Positions 52,588 through 64,000 of a stretch of DNA of 64,000 nt are shown here, piece by piece. Below the pieces are notes generated by a model. That model ran no database searches. It was not told where the DNA came from and saw only the letters and a program-made list of their open reading frames with translations. Where the stretch lies: positions 310,001 through 374,000 of the forward strand of contig JAVJVK010000001.1 of NCBI GenBank assembly GCA_040221175.1, written 5' to 3'. The stretch is from Phycisphaerales bacterium. GTDB lineage: Bacteria; Planctomycetota; Phycisphaerae; Phycisphaerales; UBA1924. Both the position numbers and the translations under genes were made by a program. Numbering within the stretch: position 1 is the first letter of the stretch; every line of letters starts with the position of its first letter.

Positions 52588-53974
<1,387 letters not shown>

Positions 53975-53988
53975 CGCTGGTCCTCAGG

Positions 53989-54306
53989 CTATCGGGATCC
54001 GCCCTCCTGATCCACGTCCGAGGCGGACGGGCGGCGGTATCGCTCGGTCTGCTCGATCACGAACCGATGCAGCTCGGCACGTGCGAATCGGTTGCTTCTG
54101 CCCACGCGACAGGGTCGGATGCGGCCGGCTTTGACCAGGTACTCAAGTGACTTGAGGGCGTCGGCCATGTCGCGATCGCCCTCATCGAGCCTGAGGTAGA
54201 CGACCGCCTCCTGTGCGGTCATCAATGTCGGCGCAACACGTGGCGGCTCCGTCGGCAGCCATTCGGTGGAGCCGAGGTGGGCGAGGTGTCCCCGTGCCTC
54301 GGTCAT
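53989..54306 (-). CDS. Excisionase-type HTH DNA-binding protein
   Basis: A 105-residue protein whose C-terminal 65 residues match the winged-helix HTH_17/MerR-like excisionase fold: M-T-A-Q-E-A-V-V-Y-L-R-L at the start and V-K-A-G-R-I-R-P-C-R-V-G-R-S-N-R-F at the wing. Such proteins direct integrases toward excision. The start at 54,306 is favoured because its ATG overlaps the stop of dam upstream (ATGA). The integrase ATG follows after 14 bases. Confidence 0.8.
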   Translation of the reverse strand: MTEARGHLAHLGSTEWLPTEPPRVAPTLMTAQEAVVYLRLDEGDRDMADALKSLEYLVKAGRIRPCRVGRSNRFARAELHRFVIEQTERYRRPSASDVDQEGGSR

Positions 54307-54791
54307 GCGGGCCACCGTTTGCTGCGTCGGAAGAAGGCGGCGCGAGACCAGTTGGTCGACCTCGGAGGCTTGCCTCGGAAGATCACGATCGCTGAGGGGA
54401 ATGGTGCCGAGTTGCTCGCGTCGCCGAAGCGAAGCCTTCCACGAACGAATCTGATCTCGTCGGCATGCACGATGTCGGCGTGCCACCACGAGGTATCCGT
54501 GCGTGCTGGGATGAGGCAGACCACTGTGGCGCCGCACGCCGCGCTCTCACGCGCCTTACGGACCCACTGGCCGATCTCGCGACCATACGGCGGGTTCATC
54601 CAACACACGCCGGACCAGTCTTGATCGAGGCCGTTCTCACGTTTCGTGAAGTACGCGTTGCACTTGGCGTTCGCCTTCGTCGCGCATACGTCGAGCGTGA
54701 AGCCAAACTCCGCGTCGAGCTCTGCGAAGAGATGGTCCGGAGTGGCCCAGAGGTCGGTCTCAGAACTGAAGTGGACGGACATTCTTGCCAT
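54303..54791 (-). CDS. Phage-type N6-adenine DNA methyltransferase
   Basis: A 162-residue enzyme of the phage Dam family (DNA_N-6-adenine methyltransferase). The N-terminal W-A-T-P-D-H-L-F-A-E-L, then D-V-C-A-T-K-A-N-A-K-C, and the catalytic N-P-P-Y-G-R at 66-71 are characteristic. It has no restriction partner nearby, so it probably protects or marks the element's DNA. The start could be Met1 (54,791) or Met4. Its stop overlaps the HTH gene start. Confidence 0.9.
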   Translation of the reverse strand: MARMSVHFSSETDLWATPDHLFAELDAEFGFTLDVCATKANAKCNAYFTKRENGLDQDWSGVCWMNPPYGREIGQWVRKARESAACGATVVCLIPARTDTSWWHADIVHADEIRFVRGRLRFGDASNSAPFPSAIVIFRGKPPRSTNWSRAAFFRRSKRWPA

Positions 54792-54845
54792 CGTGCTTCT
54801 CCGTGTCAGCGGACATGTGAACAGTGCTGGGAAAAAGGGGGCCGA

Positions 54846-55595
54846 CTACGCGTCGGTGCCCGCTCGGGTGGTCCTGGGGACTGGAAGGCCGCCTCGAACA
54901 GTGAAGTCGTCGGGAGAGGTGGCGTCTGTGCGCAAAAGGCGCTGCTGGAAACGCGGCGGGAGCACCGGCCGGCCGTCGGGCAAGCGGAGCTCGGTCAATC
55001 GATGCACCATCGCGGCAAGTGACACTTCAAAGGCGGTCGTGAGCCGGGGAAGCACGCGGTGCCGCCAAAGCCATTCGGACTCGCTGCAATCCTCTGAGAG
55101 AATGACGGTGCAGACAAAGGGGTCGAGATCGAAGTAGTTCAACGCTTGAGTGACCGAGGGCATCACATGGTCCAGAGGCATCAGGAATGCCGCGGCGAAC
55201 CGGTCGGCCTGCCGCTCGATCTGCAGCGGTGAGCCCGGACCGACTGTTGCCGTCTCGTGGAAGCTGGTTCGAATGCTGCCGTGCAACCTGAAGTGGCCCA
55301 GTTCGTGTGCCGCTGTGAACCGGAGACGAGCCGGTGACTTCAACAGAGTCTCGCTCACGAGGATCTCATTCGACTCGATGAACGTCGCGCCGAGCACGTC
55401 GGGTCCGTACGCCGAGAGGTCGGAGATTCCATACTGGATACCCAGCGGATGCTCGATCCAACGCTCTACCGGGACCGGAAGAGCAACGCTGTCCGCTCCG
55501 AGTTGTTCGACGCACTCTTCGATGCACTCACGAGCCGCCTGCTCGACCCGGCGAACCGTCGGACTCGGCTCAAGCTGCACATTGATGCCGCTCAC
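54846..55595 (-). CDS. ImmA/IrrE-family metallopeptidase
   Basis: A 249-residue zinc peptidase with H-E-L-G-H at 97-101 and a third ligand region in E-R-Q-A-D-R-F-A-A-A-F-L-M-P, the usual ImmA layout. Family members cleave a partner XRE repressor to induce mobile elements. The partner is the gene just upstream, whose TGA overlaps the GTG start here (GTGA). The C-terminal 90 residues are an extra domain with two Arg-rich helices. Confidence 0.92.
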   Translation of the reverse strand: MSGINVQLEPSPTVRRVEQAARECIEECVEQLGADSVALPVPVERWIEHPLGIQYGISDLSAYGPDVLGATFIESNEILVSETLLKSPARLRFTAAHELGHFRLHGSIRTSFHETATVGPGSPLQIERQADRFAAAFLMPLDHVMPSVTQALNYFDLDPFVCTVILSEDCSESEWLWRHRVLPRLTTAFEVSLAAMVHRLTELRLPDGRPVLPPRFQQRLLRTDATSPDDFTVRGGLPVPRTTRAGTDA

Positions 55596-55993
55596 CGAGC
55601 ACCTCCTTGGGGCTCACCACCGTCTGCTCTTCGCTTCGCTTCGGCGATGAGCGCATCCCAGTCCTCAGCCGACAGGCTCCTGGCGGTGCGGAGGAACTCG
55701 GGGACCTTGGCCGCAGACGTCGCGTCTTGCGTTGCGATCTCACCGACGACGGCATCCGGTCGCTGCCAGCCCGCGCGGAGGATCGCCTCATCGATGCGGT
55801 AAACCTGAGCGATTCGGAGCAAGAGGGCTTCCGACGGGGTCCTTCGGCCCTTCTCGAGATCGGTGATGTAGGCTGGGGCGACGTCCAGGATCCGGGCGAC
55901 ATCGCGGAGTCCCAAATCGAGGACTTCGATCCGCTGTTTCCGGAGCACGTCGCCGATGGCGGGTGAGTTCTGCTGTGAGCGTTCTGCGGGCAC
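55592..55993 (-). CDS. XRE-family transcriptional repressor
   Basis: A 133-residue regulator. The helix-turn-helix is at about 25-65 (L-R-D-V-A-R-I-L-D-V-A-P-A-Y-I-T-D-L-E-K). It is paired with the ImmA peptidase, so by analogy with the ICE systems of Bacillus it would keep the integrase operon silent until cleaved. It heads the minus-strand operon, which makes self-repression likely. The promoter would lie in 55,994-56,120, but no clear consensus was seen. Confidence 0.9.
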   Translation of the reverse strand: MPAERSQQNSPAIGDVLRKQRIEVLDLGLRDVARILDVAPAYITDLEKGRRTPSEALLLRIAQVYRIDEAILRAGWQRPDAVVGEIATQDATSAAKVPEFLRTARSLSAEDWDALIAEAKRRADGGEPQGGAR

Positions 55994-56229
55994 GCGAAAC
56001 TCCCTGTGTACGCTGACATGTTAACAGCCATTCTCGGTCCAGGCAAGCGTCAATCGTCTGGAATTCGAGTACGGGTCCTGATAGGATCGGCCGTCGCCTC
56101 GGGAGGGGCGATGGCGTCGTCCTGACGCCGACGCTTACAGCGTCGTCAGAACGAGGCAGCACACCCGGTAAACCAGCGCCAACTGGCTAAGGGCGAGGAC
56201 TTCATCAACCTCGGCGTGCTGTTCTCGTA

Positions 56230-56263
56230 GAGCCGGATGCGTGGAGACGCGCTTGTCCGGTTC
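56230..56263 (+). ncRNA. Group II intron domain V
   Basis: Exactly 34 nt: a 9-bp lower stem beginning G-A-G-C (the AGC catalytic triad, with the G-U wobble), a 2-nt bulge (UU at 56,253-56,254), a 5-bp upper stem and a GAGA tetraloop (56,244-56,247). This is the standard 9+5+4+5+2+9 architecture. The bulge is UU where AC or CG is more common. A stem at 56,151-56,163 with 56,215-56,229 leads directly into it. Confidence 0.85.
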
Positions 56264-56330
56264 GACGGAGGCTCGTCAGCGTAATCCCCTCCCGCCACGG
56301 CATATGCCCGTGAGTCTGCGAGGGAGTAAT

Positions 56331-56439
56331 CCTGGCGTTCGATCCGATGGTCGCGTCCGGTGAGGCCGGGCGACAGGGACACACGAAGGGCTGGGTATAG
56401 CAATGCGTTGCCGCTCTTCGCCGTGATGGATCGAAGCGG
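56331..56439 (+). other. Predicted RNA circle (exon) of permuted intron
   Basis: It lies between the putative 3' splice site after GTAAT at 56,330 (9 nt after bulged A56321) and the 5' splice site before GTGTG at 56,440. If the intron splices in permuted order this 109-nt piece is joined end to end. A second GTAATCC at 56,281 is an alternative 3' site, so the circle could be about 154 nt. The sequence has no frame of note. Confidence 0.45.
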
Positions 56440-57413
56440 GTGTGAATCCCGTCCGTGGGGCTCGGTCTACGGGCGAAGGCCTAAGACCGTTCAACGCGGC
56501 TGGCGTGGGGAGCTCTCGAACTGGTGACAGTCGGGACCGCGTCCGTGACCGGACGCGGCGATCGGCCGAAACAGCCGACGGTGAAAAGCTCAACCATGAG
56601 AGGCCCGAAAGGGCTTGCCAGTGAGTCTTGACAGAGACGGTGCCGAACCGCGAAGAACCGTTGCCGACGGGTAGAGGGGAGCTTTCGGTTTCTGCCCCTC
56701 GAAATCCGAGTGTTCAACTCGGGAAACTATGCCGTTGCGGGAGCACGGACATACGGCAAGGGTCCGCCGGGTCACACCGGCTAGCGACGTGACTGTCAAC
56801 ACGAAGACCATCATTAACCTGGGAACCTCTGCGGCCGCCGGGGTGATGCCCGGTGCCTGACGCTCGCAAGAGTTGGTCAGTCAGGTGCTTGAAACGCCGC
56901 AGAGGGGGAGTGTGCTCCAAGTAGAAGCCGGCTCGAAGCCGGGCGGAATCCGCTGCAAGGCAGTGGCGGGTCGTTCGCGCGCTCCGGGTGGCACCGGAGG
57001 GTCTTGCGACGACGAAAGGAGCGACGAGATGACTCGTTCTGACGATCGCAGACGCTCGGGGGAGGAGACTCCCCCGGCGTCGATCGACGAGTCGGGTAAT
57101 GCGGCCAGGCCTGACCGATTCGGGAGAATCGGTTGGGCGTGGCGGCGAACGGACGGCTCGTGCATCGGCAAGACTGTAAAGGGTGCTCGATGCACGGCCA
57201 GGGGTTCGACTCGCCGGCCCGCTATGGATTGGGGACGGCCTATTGGGAAACCGATAGGCCGGTACACCACCCAGTCAGCGGGCCAAGCGAGTCACACGAG
57301 AGGAGGTATTCCAGAGGTTTGCAGGCTTCGAGGGATGTGCCATGAACATCCCTCATCTTGGAGCGAGTACTCGTTCGCTGAAGCAGTGCCATTAACCCAC
57401 CAGATTGGTGGGC

Positions 57414-58037
57414 ATGTACAAGTGCGTCGCGACATCGATCGAAGGCTTCGTCCAGCAGGTGGCGTGCAGCTACCTGGTGCATGGCTATTTGTTCTATGTC
57501 CGCGGCGTTGTGCCTGGGTACAAGGATCCAATCGCTGTGGATGCCAAGCTCATTGAGAAGTACGCCGTGGATATGTCGAAGTGGGCTCGGTCCGTCGATG
57601 CCACGAATGGCGTTGCCCGGATGCAGTACATCCGGCACAAGCGGACCTTCCTACTCATGGCTACCCACGGGACGCACCGCTTCTTCGATGATGAGCGCGG
57701 CTCAATGAGAGACGCGAGGAAGTCACCCATCAAGTACGGTGGCTACAGCATCAGCTACCGGCGCGGGCAGGATGGAAAGTACCATCCGCATGTCCGTATC
57801 GAGCGGGGGCAGCTCGCTATACTCAAGCAGCACTTCCGGCAGTTGGCACTGCGGACATCAACCGATGCGATTGCTCGGGAATTCGCTGATTTGCCGTTCG
57901 AGCCATACGCACCAATTCGACGGCAGCTGTTCGAGTTGCTCAGAGCCACGAACCGGATCAGGAAGCAGCACGCCCATCCCGAGGTGCCAGCGCAAGCACT
58001 GCGCATGCGCCGCCGTGTCGTCTCGCCGTTCTCTTGA
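57414..58037 (+). CDS. Basic protein of unknown function, linked to intron RNA
   Basis: A 207-residue, strongly basic protein. It has no reverse transcriptase, maturase, HNH or LAGLIDADG motif. Landmarks are M-Y-K-C-V-A-T-S near the start, H-G-Y-L-F-Y-V-R-G, L-I-E-K-Y-A-V-D-M-S-K-W, F-L-L-M-A-T-H-G-T-H-R-F-F and Y-G-G-Y-S-I-S-Y-R. The last 50 residues are helical and Arg-rich. I have seen similar uncharacterised proteins in planctomycetes but know no function. ATG at 57,414 is preceded by a CCCACC/GGTGGG hairpin (57,396-57,412) instead of a ribosome site. It sits where a group II intron would place its own protein in domain IV. Confidence 0.8.
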   Translation: MYKCVATSIEGFVQQVACSYLVHGYLFYVRGVVPGYKDPIAVDAKLIEKYAVDMSKWARSVDATNGVARMQYIRHKRTFLLMATHGTHRFFDDERGSMRDARKSPIKYGGYSISYRRGQDGKYHPHVRIERGQLAILKQHFRQLALRTSTDAIAREFADLPFEPYAPIRRQLFELLRATNRIRKQHAHPEVPAQALRMRRRVVSPFS

Positions 58038-58088
58038 AACGCCCGTGGTTCGGCTCCAGATGCCCTGGCGCTGCGTGCGCCTATCGAG

Positions 58089-58094
58089 TACAAT
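58089..58094 (+). promoter_or_regulatory. Candidate -10 element for drmMII
   Basis: TACAAT 28 bases before the drmMII start, in a short non-coding gap. No -35 of good match is seen at 16-18 bp. Position and partial consensus only. Confidence 0.3.
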
Positions 58095-58121
58095 CGCTCC
58101 TCTGCCTGAGGACCTGCCACG

Positions 58122-59321
58122 ATGACTTCGCGACCAACTCCACACAGCACCATCGGACTCTTTGCCGGCATTGGCGGCATCGAACTCGGGCTGGAACGAG
58201 CCGGTTTTCAACCGGAGCTGTTGTGCGAGTTCATGCCTGAGGCTAGATCTGTGCTTCAGCGCCGCTTTGTGGATGTCTCAATTGCGAGGGATATTCGCGA
58301 ACTCGTGTCTCGTCCAAACTATCGGCTCCCGGATGCGGAGGTCGTCGCGGCCGGTTTTCCGTGCCAGGACCTCAGTCAGTGTGGTCGAACGAGGGGCATT
58401 CGCGGCGAGAAGTCTGGGCTAGTCGATTGTGTGTTGGAACTGCTCGGAAGACGCAAGCGCGGGCCGAAATGGCTGGTGATCGAGAACGTCCCGTTCATGT
58501 TGCGACTTCAGCGCGGGCAAGCGATGCGGTATCTGACGCGATCACTGGAGTCCCTGGGGTTCGACTGGGCGTATCGAGTCGTCAATGCTCGTGCCTTCGG
58601 CCTGCCGCAGCGGAGGGAACGAGTCATCTTGGTGGCCTCGCGCACCGAGGATCCTCGAGAAGTCCTGTTTGCGGACGAGGCTGGTCCGCGCCCCGATGAT
58701 GTAGAATTGGACGATCGTCCCCGTGGGTTCTACTGGACGGAGGGTAACCGGGGTTTGGGATGGGCAGTGGATGCCGTGCCAACGCTCAAGGCCGGCTCCA
58801 CAGTTGGCATCCCATCTCCGCCCGCGATATGGCTTCCTGCGTTCGACCTGGTAGTGACCCCGACGATCGAGGACGCCGAGGCCATGCAGGGTCTTCCGCG
58901 AGGCTGGACGTCGCTCTCGCATGTCTCGCCGCGCATTTCTCCGAGGCTGCGGTGGCGACTGGTAGGGAACGCCGTGCCCGTACCTGTAGCACAGTGGGTT
59001 GGTGAGAGACTCCGCGAGCCGGGCACTCCGTTGGAGCTAAAGCGCCATTTGTTGCGTTCTGGTGATTCTTGGCCGACTGCCGCGTGGGGTAACTCGCGCG
59101 AGCGTTGGGTCGTCGAGATCTCGAAGTGGCCGTTTCGGCGCAGGTGGCATGCTCTATCGGAGCGATATGGTGATCGCGGTGAACGCCTGATGGACCGACC
59201 GAGGCTTTCCCATCGAGCGGCCAGCGGCTTCTATCGGCGGATTCGACGTAGCTCGCTACGTACCGATGAGAGATTCGTGCCTTCGCTTGGTCGCTATGTC
59301 GCGAGTGTGGAAAGTGAGTGA
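58122..59321 (+). CDS. drmMII: C5-cytosine DNA methyltransferase, DISARM DrmMII-like
   Basis: A 399-residue enzyme that methylates cytosine at C5. It has F-A-G-I-G-G (14-19), the catalytic G-F-P-C-Q-D (Cys81), E-N-V at 121-123, and Q-R-R-E-R at 163-167; the target-recognition region lies at about 210-300, followed by L-V-G-N-A-V-P. In class 2 DISARM a C5 methyltransferase marks host DNA. The C-terminal 85 residues are an Arg/Trp-rich extra domain. The symbol is given because of the drmCBA cluster facing it. A Vsr gene follows after 12 bases. Confidence 0.85.
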   Translation: MTSRPTPHSTIGLFAGIGGIELGLERAGFQPELLCEFMPEARSVLQRRFVDVSIARDIRELVSRPNYRLPDAEVVAAGFPCQDLSQCGRTRGIRGEKSGLVDCVLELLGRRKRGPKWLVIENVPFMLRLQRGQAMRYLTRSLESLGFDWAYRVVNARAFGLPQRRERVILVASRTEDPREVLFADEAGPRPDDVELDDRPRGFYWTEGNRGLGWAVDAVPTLKAGSTVGIPSPPAIWLPAFDLVVTPTIEDAEAMQGLPRGWTSLSHVSPRISPRLRWRLVGNAVPVPVAQWVGERLREPGTPLELKRHLLRSGDSWPTAAWGNSRERWVVEISKWPFRRRWHALSERYGDRGERLMDRPRLSHRAASGFYRRIRRSSLRTDERFVPSLGRYVASVESE

Positions 59322-59333
59322 AGGTCGGAGGAA

Positions 59334-59777
59334 GTGGTGCCACGCACTCAAGCGAAGAGTCCAGCGGCTTCATCTGCAGCAGCCCGTCGTCGCATGCAGG
59401 CGAACCGATCGCGGGACACTCAGCCGGAACTTCTCATTCGCTCCACGCTCCACCGGCGAGGCCTCAGATTCCGCGTCGATCGGCAGCCCGTCGAAGGCGT
59501 GCGCCGTCGTGCCGATCTAGTCTTTCCACGAGCTCACATCGCTGTGTTCATCGATGGTTGCTTCTGGCACGGCTGCCCGGAGCATGGGACTTGGCCAAAG
59601 TCAAACGCCACGTTCTGGCGCGAGAAGATCAAAACGAATCAGCGGCGAGATGCGGACACGGATAGGCGTCTGCGAAAGGCGGGTTGGGAGGTCATTCGTA
59701 TCTGGGAGCACGAAGAGCCGTCCAAAGCCGCCGATAGGATCGAACGTCGCGTCCGGAGAGTCATGGCATCCGGGTAG
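59334..59777 (+). CDS. vsr: Very short patch repair endonuclease
   Basis: A 147-residue Vsr-type nuclease that nicks next to T:G mismatches made by deamination of 5-methylcytosine. Key residues are Asp61 (R-R-A-D-L-V-F), the I-D-G-C-F-W-H-G-C-P-E-H zinc and catalytic block (His79, His84) and F-W-R-E-K. It starts at GTG with GGAGGAA just upstream. Its place behind a C5 methyltransferase is the normal pairing. It ends 12 bases from the stop of drmC on the other strand. Confidence 0.93.
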   Translation: MVPRTQAKSPAASSAAARRRMQANRSRDTQPELLIRSTLHRRGLRFRVDRQPVEGVRRRADLVFPRAHIAVFIDGCFWHGCPEHGTWPKSNATFWREKIKTNQRRDADTDRRLRKAGWEVIRIWEHEEPSKAADRIERRVRRVMASG

Positions 59778-59789
59778 TCACTCGACCGA

Positions 59790-60587
59790 TCAGGCTGAGT
59801 CCCCAAGCCGTCGAATAACCTTGGTCTCGATGAGCCGCACGAAACGGTCCGCGAGCCACTGTGGGTGAGGGCCGTCACGGACGATGATTCCCACCTCGAT
59901 GTTTCGTTCGAGAGCCGCGCCGGAGAGATTGGCGCTCGTCACGAACATGGCCCGCCCATCCACGACGATCGCCTTCGCGTGCATGAGGCCGGGATTGCCA
60001 TTCGAGTCGACGTCGCGCTTGTCGATGGGCCAATGATAGAGGGTCGCAGCTTGTCGGACGGTCTCGTCGAATGCCTCGAACCCGTTGTATCGAAGCGCGC
60101 CCCCGCAATCCTGTGTCCGTTCCAAGAGGAAGTTCAGCCGGACGCCGCGATCAAGGGCCGAAGCGAGCGACTCTTGAATCCGGGCCACTGAGCCCACCGA
60201 GAAGGACGCCATCCATATCTCTTCGGATGCCTCATCGATGAGATCGACCCAGGCCCTGTCGGTGCGACGAAACGTCGACTGAGCCTGGCTAGGGCCAGAC
60301 CACACGAGCTCGACTGTCTGCTGTTCTAGTGCTTGCGCCCTGGAGAGACCAGCTGCTTCGATCGCAGAGGCGAGGATTCCGAAGTCGATCGAGCCACCAT
60401 CGCGACGTGCTAGCTCTATGACTCGTCGACCGGCTCCCCTAAACCCATCAGGAAGAAGCTCGACAACCGAGTCGAGGACTTCGTGTTCCGCCGTGCCTTG
60501 GCGTCGTAGGGCGAGGATGAAGCCGTCCAAGTGATCTCTTGGAGCGGCCGAGAGGTGCGAGATTGCGGTTGCGAGCTCGCGTGACAT
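59790..60587 (-). CDS. drmC: Phospholipase D-like nuclease, DISARM DrmC
   Basis: A 265-residue protein with a single HKD motif: His202 and Lys204 in M-H-A-K-A-I-V-V-D-G, then S-A-N-L-S-G. Single-motif PLD nucleases act as dimers. In DISARM, DrmC is the third core protein. The first 120 residues form a helical domain, as in other DrmC proteins. The ATG at 60,587 lies 2 bases after the drmB stop, so it is coupled to drmB. Confidence 0.85.
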   Translation of the reverse strand: MSRELATAISHLSAAPRDHLDGFILALRRQGTAEHEVLDSVVELLPDGFRGAGRRVIELARRDGGSIDFGILASAIEAAGLSRAQALEQQTVELVWSGPSQAQSTFRRTDRAWVDLIDEASEEIWMASFSVGSVARIQESLASALDRGVRLNFLLERTQDCGGALRYNGFEAFDETVRQAATLYHWPIDKRDVDSNGNPGLMHAKAIVVDGRAMFVTSANLSGAALERNIEVGIIVRDGPHPQWLADRFVRLIETKVIRRLGDSA

Positions 60588-60589
60588 CA

Positions 60590-62476
60590 CTAGTCCAATG
60601 CTGACTCGAAGAACGGGCGAATACCAGCCCCGATCGTCTCGACGAGAAGCGAACGATCCAAGTACTTGTTGCCGCGCTCGCAGGACGTCTCGGACACGAA
60701 GCTGCAGGCATGGCAAGCTGCGCCATGAAGATCGCGGCCTTCTCGATCCGGTTCGTGTTCGGAGCACAGCGGATCGGACGAGCACAGTCGCGCTCTCTCC
60801 AGAGCTTGCGACAGGTGCCGAACGAATAGCTCTGGGCGGGAGAGGTTCACAAGTCCTCCGAGGGTTCCCTCGCTATCTGCTGCGGCAGTCATCAGAAGGA
60901 CACCGCACATCGGTTCGTGCTCACCGATGGCAGGCGAGGCATAGATGCGCTCCTGAATGCTCGCTGCAGAGTATCCACACTCGATCGCGAACTGGCGAAT
61001 GAGGGTGTGTGACAGGGAATGGACGAGTGAGTATCGAGCGACATCGAATCCGTCATCAGCGGGGTCGATTCCGCGAGTCGATCGGAATGCGATGTGGCTG
61101 GCACGGAGTGCCGACTCGCGAGCGGTGACGGTCGGATCCTGGCGCCACTTCGCAAGTGCCGACTCCTTGAGCCGGATGAAGATGCCCTCGCCGCGCACTT
61201 CGAAGGCAGGTATCCAATCGGGCGGGTTCCTGCCGAGGCGAACTCGTTGGACGTCGGGAATCTCAGACAAGTCTGCGTAGTCCCCCGGCGAGTCGATTCG
61301 CGTAAACCCCGTGAGGGCTTTGACGACTCGAAGACGTTCGACCGCCACGATTTCTTCGATCCAGGTGGAGAAGGCGGTTGGAACGGTGCGGCGTTTGAGC
61401 TCGAAGTCGCCCGTGCGCGGAGCGTTATCCGGATCAGTGAGCAGATTCCACTCTTCTCGCTTGAGTTCGTGAGTGCTCTGTGGCTGTACGCCGCCAGCGC
61501 CGCTTCGTTTCGATTCCACCGCGTTCCATATGTCGGCATCGGAGAATTGCGAGAAGGCTTGCAGCTGTCCGACTCTGCGAAGGACTGCAAGCTCGGACTC
61601 ATTGTGGATGTTTTGCAGCATTGACCAGTGGGCGTCGATCAGGGTGGACAAACGACCCGTGGACGACGGGATCGACAAGGCCGACACGATCATCGGAAAC
61701 CACTGGTTCGATGCTCCAAGGAGCATCGCACGCGGTTCTCCATTGTCGCAGGTGTCGTCTGCAGCAACACGCCCAAGATGCGGATGCTGCCGGGGGCAGT
61801 CACCGAGATTGACTGGGCCTTCTTCACCAAAGGCCTGGGTCATCGGCCGGGACGCATTGCATTGGTCACAGCGAAGCCAGAGGTCGGCCACCTCGCTCGA
61901 AACGCCTCGCTCCTGCAGGCGATATGGCCCACAGGGAGAGCTTCGTCCGCCGCAACCCTGAGACGATGTCTGGATGTAGCGTTTCCAGGGAAAGTCGGAG
62001 ATGTGTCCGTTGCGGCACGCGAACACGAATCGGACGGGATTGACCGGCGGCGATGTGCCCGACGCCTTGGAGCAGTTCTCATGCACGTAGTGAGTCTCAT
62101 CCGGTCGTCGGGGGTTCGATCGCAGCTTGAACACGCCGAAGTCGAGAGGCGCCAGGAGTTCGCATCGGGGGCAGCGAGCCCAGTGCGGGAACGTCCGCAC
62201 TGGGATCCCGTGTGGCTGCAGATCGTCTCCTGAGTCATCGCTGGTAACCGGAGGTCCGGTCAGCTGCTTCAGCTGCGGCCCGACGAACGTGCGAACGAGG
62301 GCGAGCAATCGTTCCTCGTCGATTGCATTAGCTGGACTCGTCGGATCCCAATCGGGCTGAGCCCAGTCCTCGAGCCCAAGCACCGTCGCCGTGAAGTGTG
62401 GAAGATCGACGGAACTGCCGATCCCGAAGGTATGCACGGCCTGGCTACGTCGGAGATCTCCAACTGGCTGTCTCAT
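60590..62476 (-). CDS. drmB: DUF1998 protein, DISARM DrmB
   Basis: A 628-residue protein. An N-terminal zinc ribbon appears as R-C-P-R-C (about 101-105). The C-terminal DUF1998 domain has L-V-H-S-L-S-H-T-L-I-R, then G-V-L-L-M-T-A-A-A-D-S-E-G-T, and a late Cys set (D-P-L-C, A-C-H-A-C, S-C-E-R-G-N). DrmA and DrmB form the DNA-binding complex of DISARM. The start is the ATG at 62,476, because AAGGAG lies 6 bases upstream; a TTG at 62,491 is also in frame. Confidence 0.9.
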   Translation of the reverse strand: MRQPVGDLRRSQAVHTFGIGSSVDLPHFTATVLGLEDWAQPDWDPTSPANAIDEERLLALVRTFVGPQLKQLTGPPVTSDDSGDDLQPHGIPVRTFPHWARCPRCELLAPLDFGVFKLRSNPRRPDETHYVHENCSKASGTSPPVNPVRFVFACRNGHISDFPWKRYIQTSSQGCGGRSSPCGPYRLQERGVSSEVADLWLRCDQCNASRPMTQAFGEEGPVNLGDCPRQHPHLGRVAADDTCDNGEPRAMLLGASNQWFPMIVSALSIPSSTGRLSTLIDAHWSMLQNIHNESELAVLRRVGQLQAFSQFSDADIWNAVESKRSGAGGVQPQSTHELKREEWNLLTDPDNAPRTGDFELKRRTVPTAFSTWIEEIVAVERLRVVKALTGFTRIDSPGDYADLSEIPDVQRVRLGRNPPDWIPAFEVRGEGIFIRLKESALAKWRQDPTVTARESALRASHIAFRSTRGIDPADDGFDVARYSLVHSLSHTLIRQFAIECGYSAASIQERIYASPAIGEHEPMCGVLLMTAAADSEGTLGGLVNLSRPELFVRHLSQALERARLCSSDPLCSEHEPDREGRDLHGAACHACSFVSETSCERGNKYLDRSLLVETIGAGIRPFFESALD

Positions 62477-62487
62477 GGAAGTCTCCT

Positions 62488-64000
62488 TCAACCGTGTGGG
62501 CGAGTGGCATCCTCGATGAGGATCAAACGAGAGCTCGGTTCGACATCACGCAACGAGTTCAAGCAGGTGAACGGCTGCCAATCCTGTTCTTCCGGCGCTC
62601 GGAGCAGTGGAACCGAGACGTCGTCTCGGCCACGCCGTCGGTACACGAGCGTTGGCGTGTTGCTGGCCTGGCTCGCCCATTCGTGAGCCAGATTGCCAAG
62701 GCGTGCCTTCACCACTTCGGCGAGGGCTGCATCTTCGATGTTCTCGACCCTCCTGCGGATCGCCTGGATCGCCGTCTCGGCAAAGCCAGGCAGCCCATCA
62801 ACCTCGCGTGCGGCCAGGTTCGGATTGAGCTGTTGCTCGCCATGTCGGACGAGAGTGACAAGCAATGCCGCTAGGCCGCGGTCGATGGCTCGCGCAGCAA
62901 ACGGGGTGACCGAGAGTGCCTCGACGTGCTGGTAGAACGTGGCGTGGTAGTGCCGAAATCGCTCATAGTGCGACAAGTCGCGAGGACGGGCCCAGTTGTA
63001 TACGGTACAGACGAGACCGGGATGTCTGCGGCCAACACGGCTCGTAGCTTGGATGTACTCCGATGTCGCCTTCGGTTGGCCGCCGACCACCATCAGACCC
63101 AATCGGTCGATGTCTACACCGACGGAGATCATGCTGGTCGCCAGCATGACGTCAATCGGACGCGGAATCGGCTCGAGCCCCTCCTTAGCGTTCTTCTCAC
63201 GAAGACGATCTCGCTCTTGAGAGAACTTCGTCTCGAGTCGATCGAGGATGAACGGTATGTCGGCGGAGTGCTTGCGTGAGGTGAGCTCTTCGATCTTGTG
63301 GAGTATGCGCCGCGACAGCCCGCGACGATCCATGTGGCGGAGTCGATTCCGCACATCCTCGTCGATCATCCGACGCATGCCACCGAGCTCACGGAGGGAA
63401 TTGAAGTACCCCACGGCCGTAAGCCATGCATCTGCATCCGTGTCGTACTTCTCGTAGAGGTGAGCACCAGCCGAGAGGAAGGCAACGAACGTGCGGATCA
63501 AGGAGGCCTTGAGGCTGCGTCCGGGCGCACAGATACCGATGTACTGTCGTCCCGGCAGCTCTGACACCTCTCGACGCTTCGAGAAGAAGTTCCCTGAGGC
63601 GTCGATACCCGGTGGAGGAAAGACACTGAGCCGGCGACAGAACAGCTCGTGAACCTGCTGTTTTGCATTGCGGACCGTTGCCGTAGAGGCCACGACTTTG
63701 GGGCGCACTCGCTGACCATCGACCTCCCATGAGCAGAGTTCGTCGATTGCCGTCTCGTAGAGGCCCACCATGCTGCCGAGAGGACCGCTGATGAGGTGCA
63801 GTTCGTCTTGGATGATGAGATCCGGTGGGCGAAGCTCGGCGTGTGGAACGGAGTTCGTTGCGGGAAGCGGGCCTCGACGATTGTGCCGGTCCTTGTCATC
63901 GGTATCCGGCGATCGGTACCCGTGACGCGGACAGAACTTGTCCACGCGCCCGAAGAGCATCTCGGTCAGTCCGTTCCAGGGCATCTGAGCGAACTTGTCG
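62488..64000 (-). CDS. drmA: Helicase, DISARM DrmA (partial, 5' end outside window)
   Basis: The visible part is about 500 residues and runs on past the window edge with no stop. Motif II is I-I-Q-D-E-L-H-L-I-S-G, motif III is A-S-T-A-T-V, and motifs V/VI are S-M-I-S-V-G-V-D-I-D and Q-A-T-S-R-V-G-R-R, so it is a superfamily 2 helicase. The ATP-binding motif I should lie outside. The order drmA-drmB-drmC and the C5 methyltransferase facing it mark a class 2 DISARM. The stop codon overlaps the ribosome site of drmB. Confidence 0.88.
   Translation of the reverse strand, partial: DKFAQMPWNGLTEMLFGRVDKFCPRHGYRSPDTDDKDRHNRRGPLPATNSVPHAELRPPDLIIQDELHLISGPLGSMVGLYETAIDELCSWEVDGQRVRPKVVASTATVRNAKQQVHELFCRRLSVFPPPGIDASGNFFSKRREVSELPGRQYIGICAPGRSLKASLIRTFVAFLSAGAHLYEKYDTDADAWLTAVGYFNSLRELGGMRRMIDEDVRNRLRHMDRRGLSRRILHKIEELTSRKHSADIPFILDRLETKFSQERDRLREKNAKEGLEPIPRPIDVMLATSMISVGVDIDRLGLMVVGGQPKATSEYIQATSRVGRRHPGLVCTVYNWARPRDLSHYERFRHYHATFYQHVEALSVTPFAARAIDRGLAALLVTLVRHGEQQLNPNLAAREVDGLPGFAETAIQAIRRRVENIEDAALAEVVKARLGNLAHEWASQASNTPTLVYRRRGRDDVSVPLLRAPEEQDWQPFTCLNSLRDVEPSSRLILIEDATRPHG

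Follow-up and report, generated by a model that had tools for sequence, protein, structure and literature searches.

The window analysed here, a 64,000-nt stretch of genomic DNA from a Phycisphaerales bacterium, carries a circularly permuted (CP) group II ribozyme followed by the gene acpG, and we consider it likely that the two make up a whole permuted retroelement borne by mobile elements, with AcpG as a maturase partner descended from a reverse transcriptase (RT). With somewhat less assurance we favour a more specific reading, in which AcpG would be a dead, fingerless group II RT and the dedicated maturase of the CP ribozyme, a bacterial counterpart of Prp8, and in which RNA and acpG would form a complete retroelement permuted at domain IV (D4), its retromobility lost, that has become a standing component of plasmids and of islands with defence genes. 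When Roth et al. (PMC8637638) described CP group II ribozymes in 2021, two questions were left, namely the nature of AcpG and whether CP RNAs need a protein; an RT-like fold, if true, answers the former and makes the latter testable. The features of the window are collected in Table 1.

Table 1. Features of the window, in window coordinates (D, domain).
Feature	Coordinates	Strand	Evidence or remark
tRNA-Asp, integration site	52588..52662	+	45-nt repeat 52618-52662 recurs at G000:C1:412149-412193
Tyrosine integrase of the island	52607..53974	-	PF00589, E 6.8e-21
Possible excisionase-like protein	53989..54537	-	TIGR01764, 20.2 bits, below cut-off 28.8
ImmA/IrrE-type M78 peptidase	54846..55595	-	PF06114, E 3.9e-15
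Predicted CP group II ribozyme, order P1/P2-D5-D6-circle-D1-D2-D3-D4	56165..57360	+	Outer ends approximate, from conservation (63-sequence alignment)
P2 loop	56199..56208	+	CATCA 56203-56207 pairs with D2 loop
Domain V, catalytic AGC triad	56230..56263	+	RF00029; 13 D5 pairs, 44 sequences
Domain VI, predicted branch A 56342	56264..56348	+	10 D6 pairs, all changed on both sides at least once
Predicted excised circle, 19 nt	56349..56367	+	Gap between 3' and 5' splice motifs
IBS1 GAGGCC	56362-56367	+	Pairs with EBS1
5' splice motif GGGCG, start of D1	56368..56372	+	60 of 63 homologs; motif as in PMC8637638
EBS1 GGTTTC, D1 terminal loop	56687..56692	+	IBS1 pairing 6/6, two G-U
D2 loop	56842..56850	+	TGATG 56844-56848 pairs with P2 loop
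acpG, 207-aa basic protein, predicted degenerate RT fold, predicted maturase	57414..58037	+	AcpG homology, AF2 model, fold search, profile match
C5 cytosine DNA methyltransferase, cargo	58122..59321	+	PF00145, E 4e-41
Vsr endonuclease, cargo	59334..59777	+	TIGR00632, 125.5 bits, cut-off 97.85
DISARM drmC, cargo	59790..60785	-	NF038319, 178.4 bits, cut-off 133
DISARM drmB, cargo	60590..62491	-	NF038324, 663.7 bits, cut-off 240
DISARM drmA, partial	62488..63984	-	NF038325, 679.6 bits, cut-off 950, profile positions 671-1165 only

The evidence supports a CP group II ribozyme, a known but rare kind of RNA, as the original prediction had proposed. In a 63-sequence RNA alignment, conserved blocks run from ~56165 to ~57355, with D5 and D6 before D1 and with D1-D4 after, which is the CP order (the D2-D4 borders are approximate). 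The domain V of the original prediction was recovered by Rfam model RF00029, which matched 56228-56348 on the plus strand (48 bits, cut-off 40, E 1.9e-7). The domain VI hairpin placed behind it also held up, its pairs covarying and its predicted branch A56342 bulging from a helix with a conserved internal loop, and the long stem-rich RNA further downstream coincides with the conserved blocks and with an extensive predicted D1 fold. The AU at 56347-56348 that precedes the 3' splice site is kept in 63 of 63 homologs. Since this AU ends at 56348 and GGGCG starts at 56368, the predicted circle is 19 nt long, inside the range of 15-86 nt that marks CP circles; across the 63 homologs as aligned, circle length varies from 12 to 142 nt. 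The GC within GGGCG is near-invariant, so that the epsilon-epsilon' contact could hardly covary.

Covariation was assessed domain by domain. Among the 23 predicted pairs of D5 and D6, 18 showed changes on both sides (44 sequences). The EBS1-IBS1 pairing, proposed from the start as a check, was found in 296 of 372 cells, where shuffling gave a mean of 249 (sd 6.5) and never reached 296 in 5000 rounds; the signal, obtained from 62 of the 63 sequences (the remaining one is gapped there), stems from the last three, variable positions. EBS1 falls in a terminal loop of the predicted D1 fold; a guess by eye that had put it near 56473 was abandoned, as the scan pointed to 56687. The P2-D2 pseudoknot, a loop-loop contact unique to CP RNAs according to PMC8637638, had at least five contiguous pairs in 51 of 58 homologs versus a shuffled mean of 33.9, with a mean pairing length of 5.81 versus 4.79 that was reached by none of 1000 shuffles. 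Misplaced segments gave no such excess and corrected segments did. These shuffles overstate significance because the aligned RNAs are mutually related. The predicted D1 fold comprises 126 pairs, 95 of them with both-side changes, and 6490 of 7089 cells are paired (58 sequences), figures biased in the fold's favour, since it was derived from the same alignment used to score its pairs. The D1-D4 folds and the P2-D2 tests used 58 of the 63 sequences, omitting L033, L014, L037, L056 and L067.

To check that the RNA belongs to this family, we used a covariance model (R1) of the segment from D5 through D6 and the circle to the 5' splice site. Removal of five named outliers and of over-long sequences had reduced the 63 aligned RNAs to 56 references, of which R1 uses 44; L037, L056 and L067 were left out for a misplaced D5, nine others merely to shorten the list, and the window stands for L034. 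R1 scores 124.6 bits on the window (56224-56380), which is among its own sequences. Of the plasmids named as CP RNA carriers in PMC8637638, two were compared with R1 and both match, pPNAP05 of Polaromonas at 40.1 bits and pTT8 of Thermus weakly, at 22.8 bits (E 0.0008). Overall, 10 of 14 AcpG-bearing plasmids of Thermus and Proteobacteria were matched (E <= 0.004), and R1 found nothing in the other four. Across Planctomycetota genomes, hits at E <= 0.001 occurred in 37 of 294; because those below ~50 bits may be ordinary group II introns, we count as clear the 7 of 294 with at least 70 bits. As a separate observation, one planctomycete genome (G248) has 15 group II RT matches, 10 of which contain exactly one in-frame TGA.

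Three other readings of the RNA have to be weighed. The original prediction had set the 5' splice site at GTGTG 56440, giving a circle of ~109 nt and a junction from 56,439 to 56,331. GTGTG does resemble the canonical GUGYG start, but it lies within D1, whereas 60 of 63 homologs retain the GGGCG found at 56368, which follows a covarying IBS1; a boundary at GTGTG is thus very unlikely, and the splice motifs put the predicted junction at 56367-to-56349. A conventional group II intron, or a broken one, with its main part elsewhere could likewise offer a D5 and D6, which are typical of such introns. Yet RF00029 at its gathering score had no second match in the window or in the whole 3.44-Mb genome, no group II RT was matched in that genome (TIGR04416, E <= 0.001), and the permuted order is maintained throughout the 63-sequence alignment, which leaves this reading next to no credence. 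Finally, the window copy might be a decayed, inactive relic: for the Polaromonas RNA, the text of PMC8637638 reports that no spliced product was seen. We find this improbable, as the window retains intact positions for splicing, branching, D5, EBS1-IBS1 and P2-D2, and acpG has an uninterrupted frame, with identities of 81% and 70% to the two nearest relatives among 163 family genomes.

The most informative part of the locus had been missed by the original prediction, namely acpG itself, which starts ~60 nt past the last conserved RNA block. Its product belongs, by homology, to AcpG, which the text of PMC8637638 presents as an orphan family beside CP RNAs, with no homology known. Of 163 genomes in the window's family, 18 contain a homolog, and counting from the best 80 of 92 hits (one locus a duplicate), homologs are present at no fewer than 79 named loci. 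Within those best 80 hits the loci are mostly Planctomycetota, a few belong to Acidobacteria, Hydrogenedentes, Proteobacteria, Verrucomicrobia and others, and the closest named relative is a Phycisphaerales bacterium (81% identity). The AcpG profile matched proteobacterial plasmid proteins, that of pPNAP05 included, at E 1.7e-21; proteobacterial AcpG in turn matched the Thermus TTHC007 group at 5e-14, and window-type AcpG matched that group directly at 5e-6. These are matches between alignments, and TTHC007 as a single sequence gave no match to the AcpG profile. All 87 AcpGs measured have a pI above 9.7, a basicity that an RNA-binding protein might show. Searches of AcpG against Pfam, NCBIfam, PADLOC, PHROGs and PDB sequences returned nothing usable; the 16 Pfam families hit by 76 AcpGs at E up to 10 include no RT or maturase model, and no acpG was found in viral contigs or phage records.

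The gene and the RNA are co-inherited. Among 78 loci from the best 80 of 92 hits, the CP RNA precedes acpG by 1133-1794 nt (median 1304) and shares its strand in 61; close linkage was counted within 2.1 kb. In three more the distance is 3-6 kb, and in nine the contig extends less than 1.5 kb upstream. The remaining five gave no strict RNA hit; in three of these (L050, L062 and L083) a weaker D5 aligns with the conserved splice motifs. Moreover, RNA and AcpG distances correlate across 52 loci (r 0.74, a value reached in 0 of 2000 permutations). Tandem order is not universal: planctomycete-type loci have RNA and acpG in tandem, and in nine of the ten R1-matching Thermus and proteobacterial plasmids, an E. 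coli plasmid included, the RNA is divergent from acpG, the only tandem case being Pseudoalteromonas pMtBL. Second complete or partial acpG copies were seen within ~10 kb of the first on the same contig in three loci (L114:16588-17100, L038:19531 and L050:14798).

Structure prediction suggests what AcpG may be. The AlphaFold model of the window's protein (pLDDT 96.5, pTM 0.89) was compared with solved structures using VIA-align, and ranks 1-14 were all group II intron RTs, two of them the group II-like G2L4. Their Z-scores run from 10.2 to 8.2; values of 7-8 can arise even for models that lack a clear match, and a Z of ~10 exceeds these by a modest margin. The model aligned to 8h2h_D over 189 of its 207 residues at 3.9 A, and to residues 106-425 of 8t2r_D over 178 residues at 3.6 A. 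Next in the ranking came DRT9 (Z 8.2) and Prp8 (8.0), with retrons and telomerase further down. A second AcpG, 36% identical to the window's and modelled at pLDDT ~96, gave a similar picture: the first seven ranks again fell to group II intron RTs (Z 9.6 to 8.2), DRT9 came next, and the best match covered 194 of 214 residues. For the window model, Foldseek's top hit was the retron Eco8 RT (E 6.9e-4, probability 0.96), with a group II RT in fifth place; for the second model, retron Ec86 came first (probability 0.97, E 5.9e-3) and unrelated folds appeared from rank 4. The TM-scores of the two top Foldseek hits were 0.27 and 0.40. A viral structure library held no AcpG match at E <= 0.001, its weak rows including RNA-dependent RNA polymerases. 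AcpG is thus predicted to have an RT palm- and thumb-like fold, an assignment that derives mainly from structure prediction, replicated once within the family, and for which sequence support is weak.

The sequence signal came from hhalign, which aligned AcpG to a planctomycete group II RT profile at E 0.002 with a score of 31.2, setting AcpG R-(H/Y/F)-G-R-F on RYADD and FAGYS on FLGF. This score exceeded those of all 78 other neighbour families (maximum 25.4), a control whose lengths were not matched to the RT profile and which includes doubtful ORFs; column shuffling of the RT profile equalled the AcpG score in 3 of 150 cases. The proteobacterial AcpG profile alone scored 26.4 against RTs, the Thermus profile 16.7, and the reversed RT profile 17.3. 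AcpG lacks the YxDD catalytic motif in this alignment, its commonest residues at the aligned positions being H/Y/F, G, R and F, so that R and F stand where an RT has its two catalytic Asp residues. Given the predicted fold, AcpG is probably an RT that has shrunk and lost its catalytic activity, a Prp8-like maturase, which suggests a role in helping the RNA to fold or splice.

The cassette sits in an integrated island with defence genes beside the RNA, both as first proposed. The island measures ~49.5 kb (window 52588-64000, G000:C1:362588-412193 in the window's genome) and has an exact 45-nt copy of the tRNA end at its far end. In a same-genus genome the two island flanks meet at the tRNA end; another ~2.3 kb differ further along the right flank, past its initial 0.7 kb. 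The first 74.9 kb contained no tRNA repeat of at least 14 nt, the att repeat lying further on. DISARM drmA, drmB and drmC are present next door, adjacent to one another and separate from the RNA cassette, drmA only partly within the ORF examined; in the other loci compared, DISARM lies near acpG in full at L110 and in part at L050. The C5 methyltransferase fits a type II model (PDLC03324, E 2.7e-125) much better than the DISARM methyltransferase model (E 4e-23), and the methyltransferase/Vsr pair (58122-59777) may therefore be separate from DISARM.

Mobile-element genes also accompany the cassette elsewhere. Clusters resembling ParA, ParB, integrase or TraD lie upstream in 38 of 51 loci, namely those of 88 with at least 6 kb upstream, each cluster being identified by one representative. 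HTH and/or M78-peptidase genes are found in 12 loci, nearly always on the opposite strand, and 10 of these have an integrase and none has ParA. An M78 peptidase-like protein like that of the window occurs in nine other loci. In the window, 54846-55993 on the minus strand holds an XRE HTH (recognized by DNA similarity to L017) and the ImmA/IrrE-like peptidase, divergent from the cassette, which the two may control; an ORF at 55570-56046 considered as the HTH protein was discarded, being in the wrong frame and matching nothing. A family of ~100-aa proteins without a Pfam match was seen near the cassette in 27 loci (for example, L013:1163-1468, minus strand).

To gauge the link with defence, we chose 248 ORFs within 6 kb downstream at 64 loci and scanned 188. 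Two sets of 93 and 95 scanned proteins matched 322 and 144 PADLOC models, respectively (E <= 1e-15), and 100 control proteins matched 8 models, one protein each; these controls were 100 of 149 ORFs from elsewhere in cassette-bearing genomes of the window's family, not from the genomes of most loci. The nearest long ORF matched defence models in 6 of 20 loci drawn at random from 62, two of them via PD-T4-6. A link between cassette and defence is suggestive, and the cargo varies by locus.

Two rival accounts concern what AcpG is and what the cassette does. AcpG could have no kinship with RTs and be a basic protein that binds nucleic acids, its palm-like fold a mere resemblance, for instance a plasmid maintenance or replication accessory protein that travels with the RNA by chance. 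The modest Foldseek E-values, the weak sequence signal and the lack of a Pfam RT hit speak for this, as do the many acpG copies near ParA/ParB genes and the presence of some copies on plasmids. However, VIA-align ranks group II intron RTs first for two models, across nearly the whole chain, thumb included, none of the 78 control families scored as high against the RT profile, and the partner RNA that is co-inherited with AcpG is itself a group II ribozyme; we therefore hold the unrelated-protein account to be unlikely. A second account makes the cassette an anti-invader weapon, in which the branched RNA and AcpG would cut foreign RNA or DNA at short IBS-like targets, an idea raised in the discussion of PMC8637638. 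Several kinds of defence gene within 6 kb downstream, the PADLOC matches well above control and the nearest-ORF result agree with it. But the model counts are inflated, as one protein matches many PADLOC models; PD-T4-6, which gave two of the six nearest-ORF hits, also hits kinase models and may be generic; the control proteins come from genomes other than those of most loci; and the defence genes differ among loci, on islands and plasmids that carry such cargo anyway. We regard a weapon as doubtful.

If the RNA acts by the published chemistry, the 2'-OH of the bulged A56342 in D6 would attack the downstream 5' splice site before G56368, and the freed 3' end, its IBS1 held by EBS1 (56687-56692), would then attack the upstream 3' splice site after U56348. 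This would release the 19 nt of 56349-56367 as an RNA circle and leave a branched RNA shaped like a T. AcpG would be the miniaturised descendant of a group II intron-encoded RT that kept the palm/thumb-like fold and lost the YADD residues, and would most likely bind the ribozyme as a maturase, as the dead Prp8 RT domain does on the spliceosomal RNA core. Against a need for a maturase counts the report that CP ribozymes self-splice without protein (PMC8637638), and the same text mentions genomes with CP RNA that lack acpG. As for origin, a canonical group II intron houses its protein ORF in D4 (PMC8637638). Opened just 3' of that ORF and closed through the exon, such an intron would read D5-D6-exon-D1-D2-D3-D4-ORF. 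Because the tandem order seen here is that of an intron opened 3' of its ORF, we infer that RNA and acpG are probably one whole permuted retroelement. This cassette would be carried by mobile elements, here the tRNA-Asp island with its DISARM cargo.

The window RNA resembles the CP group II ribozymes of Roth et al. (PMC8637638) in its D5-D6-circle-D1-D4 order and NU/GGGCG motifs, its EBS1-IBS1 pairing and P2-D2 pseudoknot, the absence of an internal ORF and the nearby AcpG. It differs in length (~1.2 kb versus ~900 nt in that text) and in having acpG directly downstream on the same strand, where PMC8637638 reports all orientations. The relatives found here are mostly Planctomycetota, a word absent from the main text of PMC8637638, the only directly relevant source on CP group II RNA and AcpG in the literature collection searched, whose supplement may list such members. 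With the AcpG/TTHC007 family the window's protein shares profile homology and linkage to CP RNA, and the predicted RT-like fold assigned here is the difference. With group II RTs and maturases (8h2h, 8t2r, 6me0 and GsI-IIC) it shares the predicted palm/thumb and a group II RNA partner, but it has only 207 aa, the match starts ~100-155 residues into the RT chain, and the catalytic Asp pair is missing. The RT-like domain of Prp8, which is catalytically inactive, likewise sits on a group II-like RNA core and matches AcpG at Z 8.0 (rmsd 4.8, 199 aligned); the likeness is one of fold, and AcpG is a small free-standing protein. If the assignment is true, AcpG is another dead RT on a group II-type active site besides Prp8, and the cassette exemplifies a route from retroelement to circle-making RNA.

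Since the family occurs on E. coli plasmids, it is amenable to study in a laboratory host. All RNA-acpG matches in E. coli were on plasmids (22 records in 21 of 5426 genomes, 15 covering at least 80%), and the listed carrier plasmids measure 27-34 kb. One E. coli plasmid, pFHI_NMBU_11_03 (L120:4677-6690), has a CP RNA match of 43.9 bits with a divergent acpG annotated as a hypothetical protein, and also carries type IV secretion genes.
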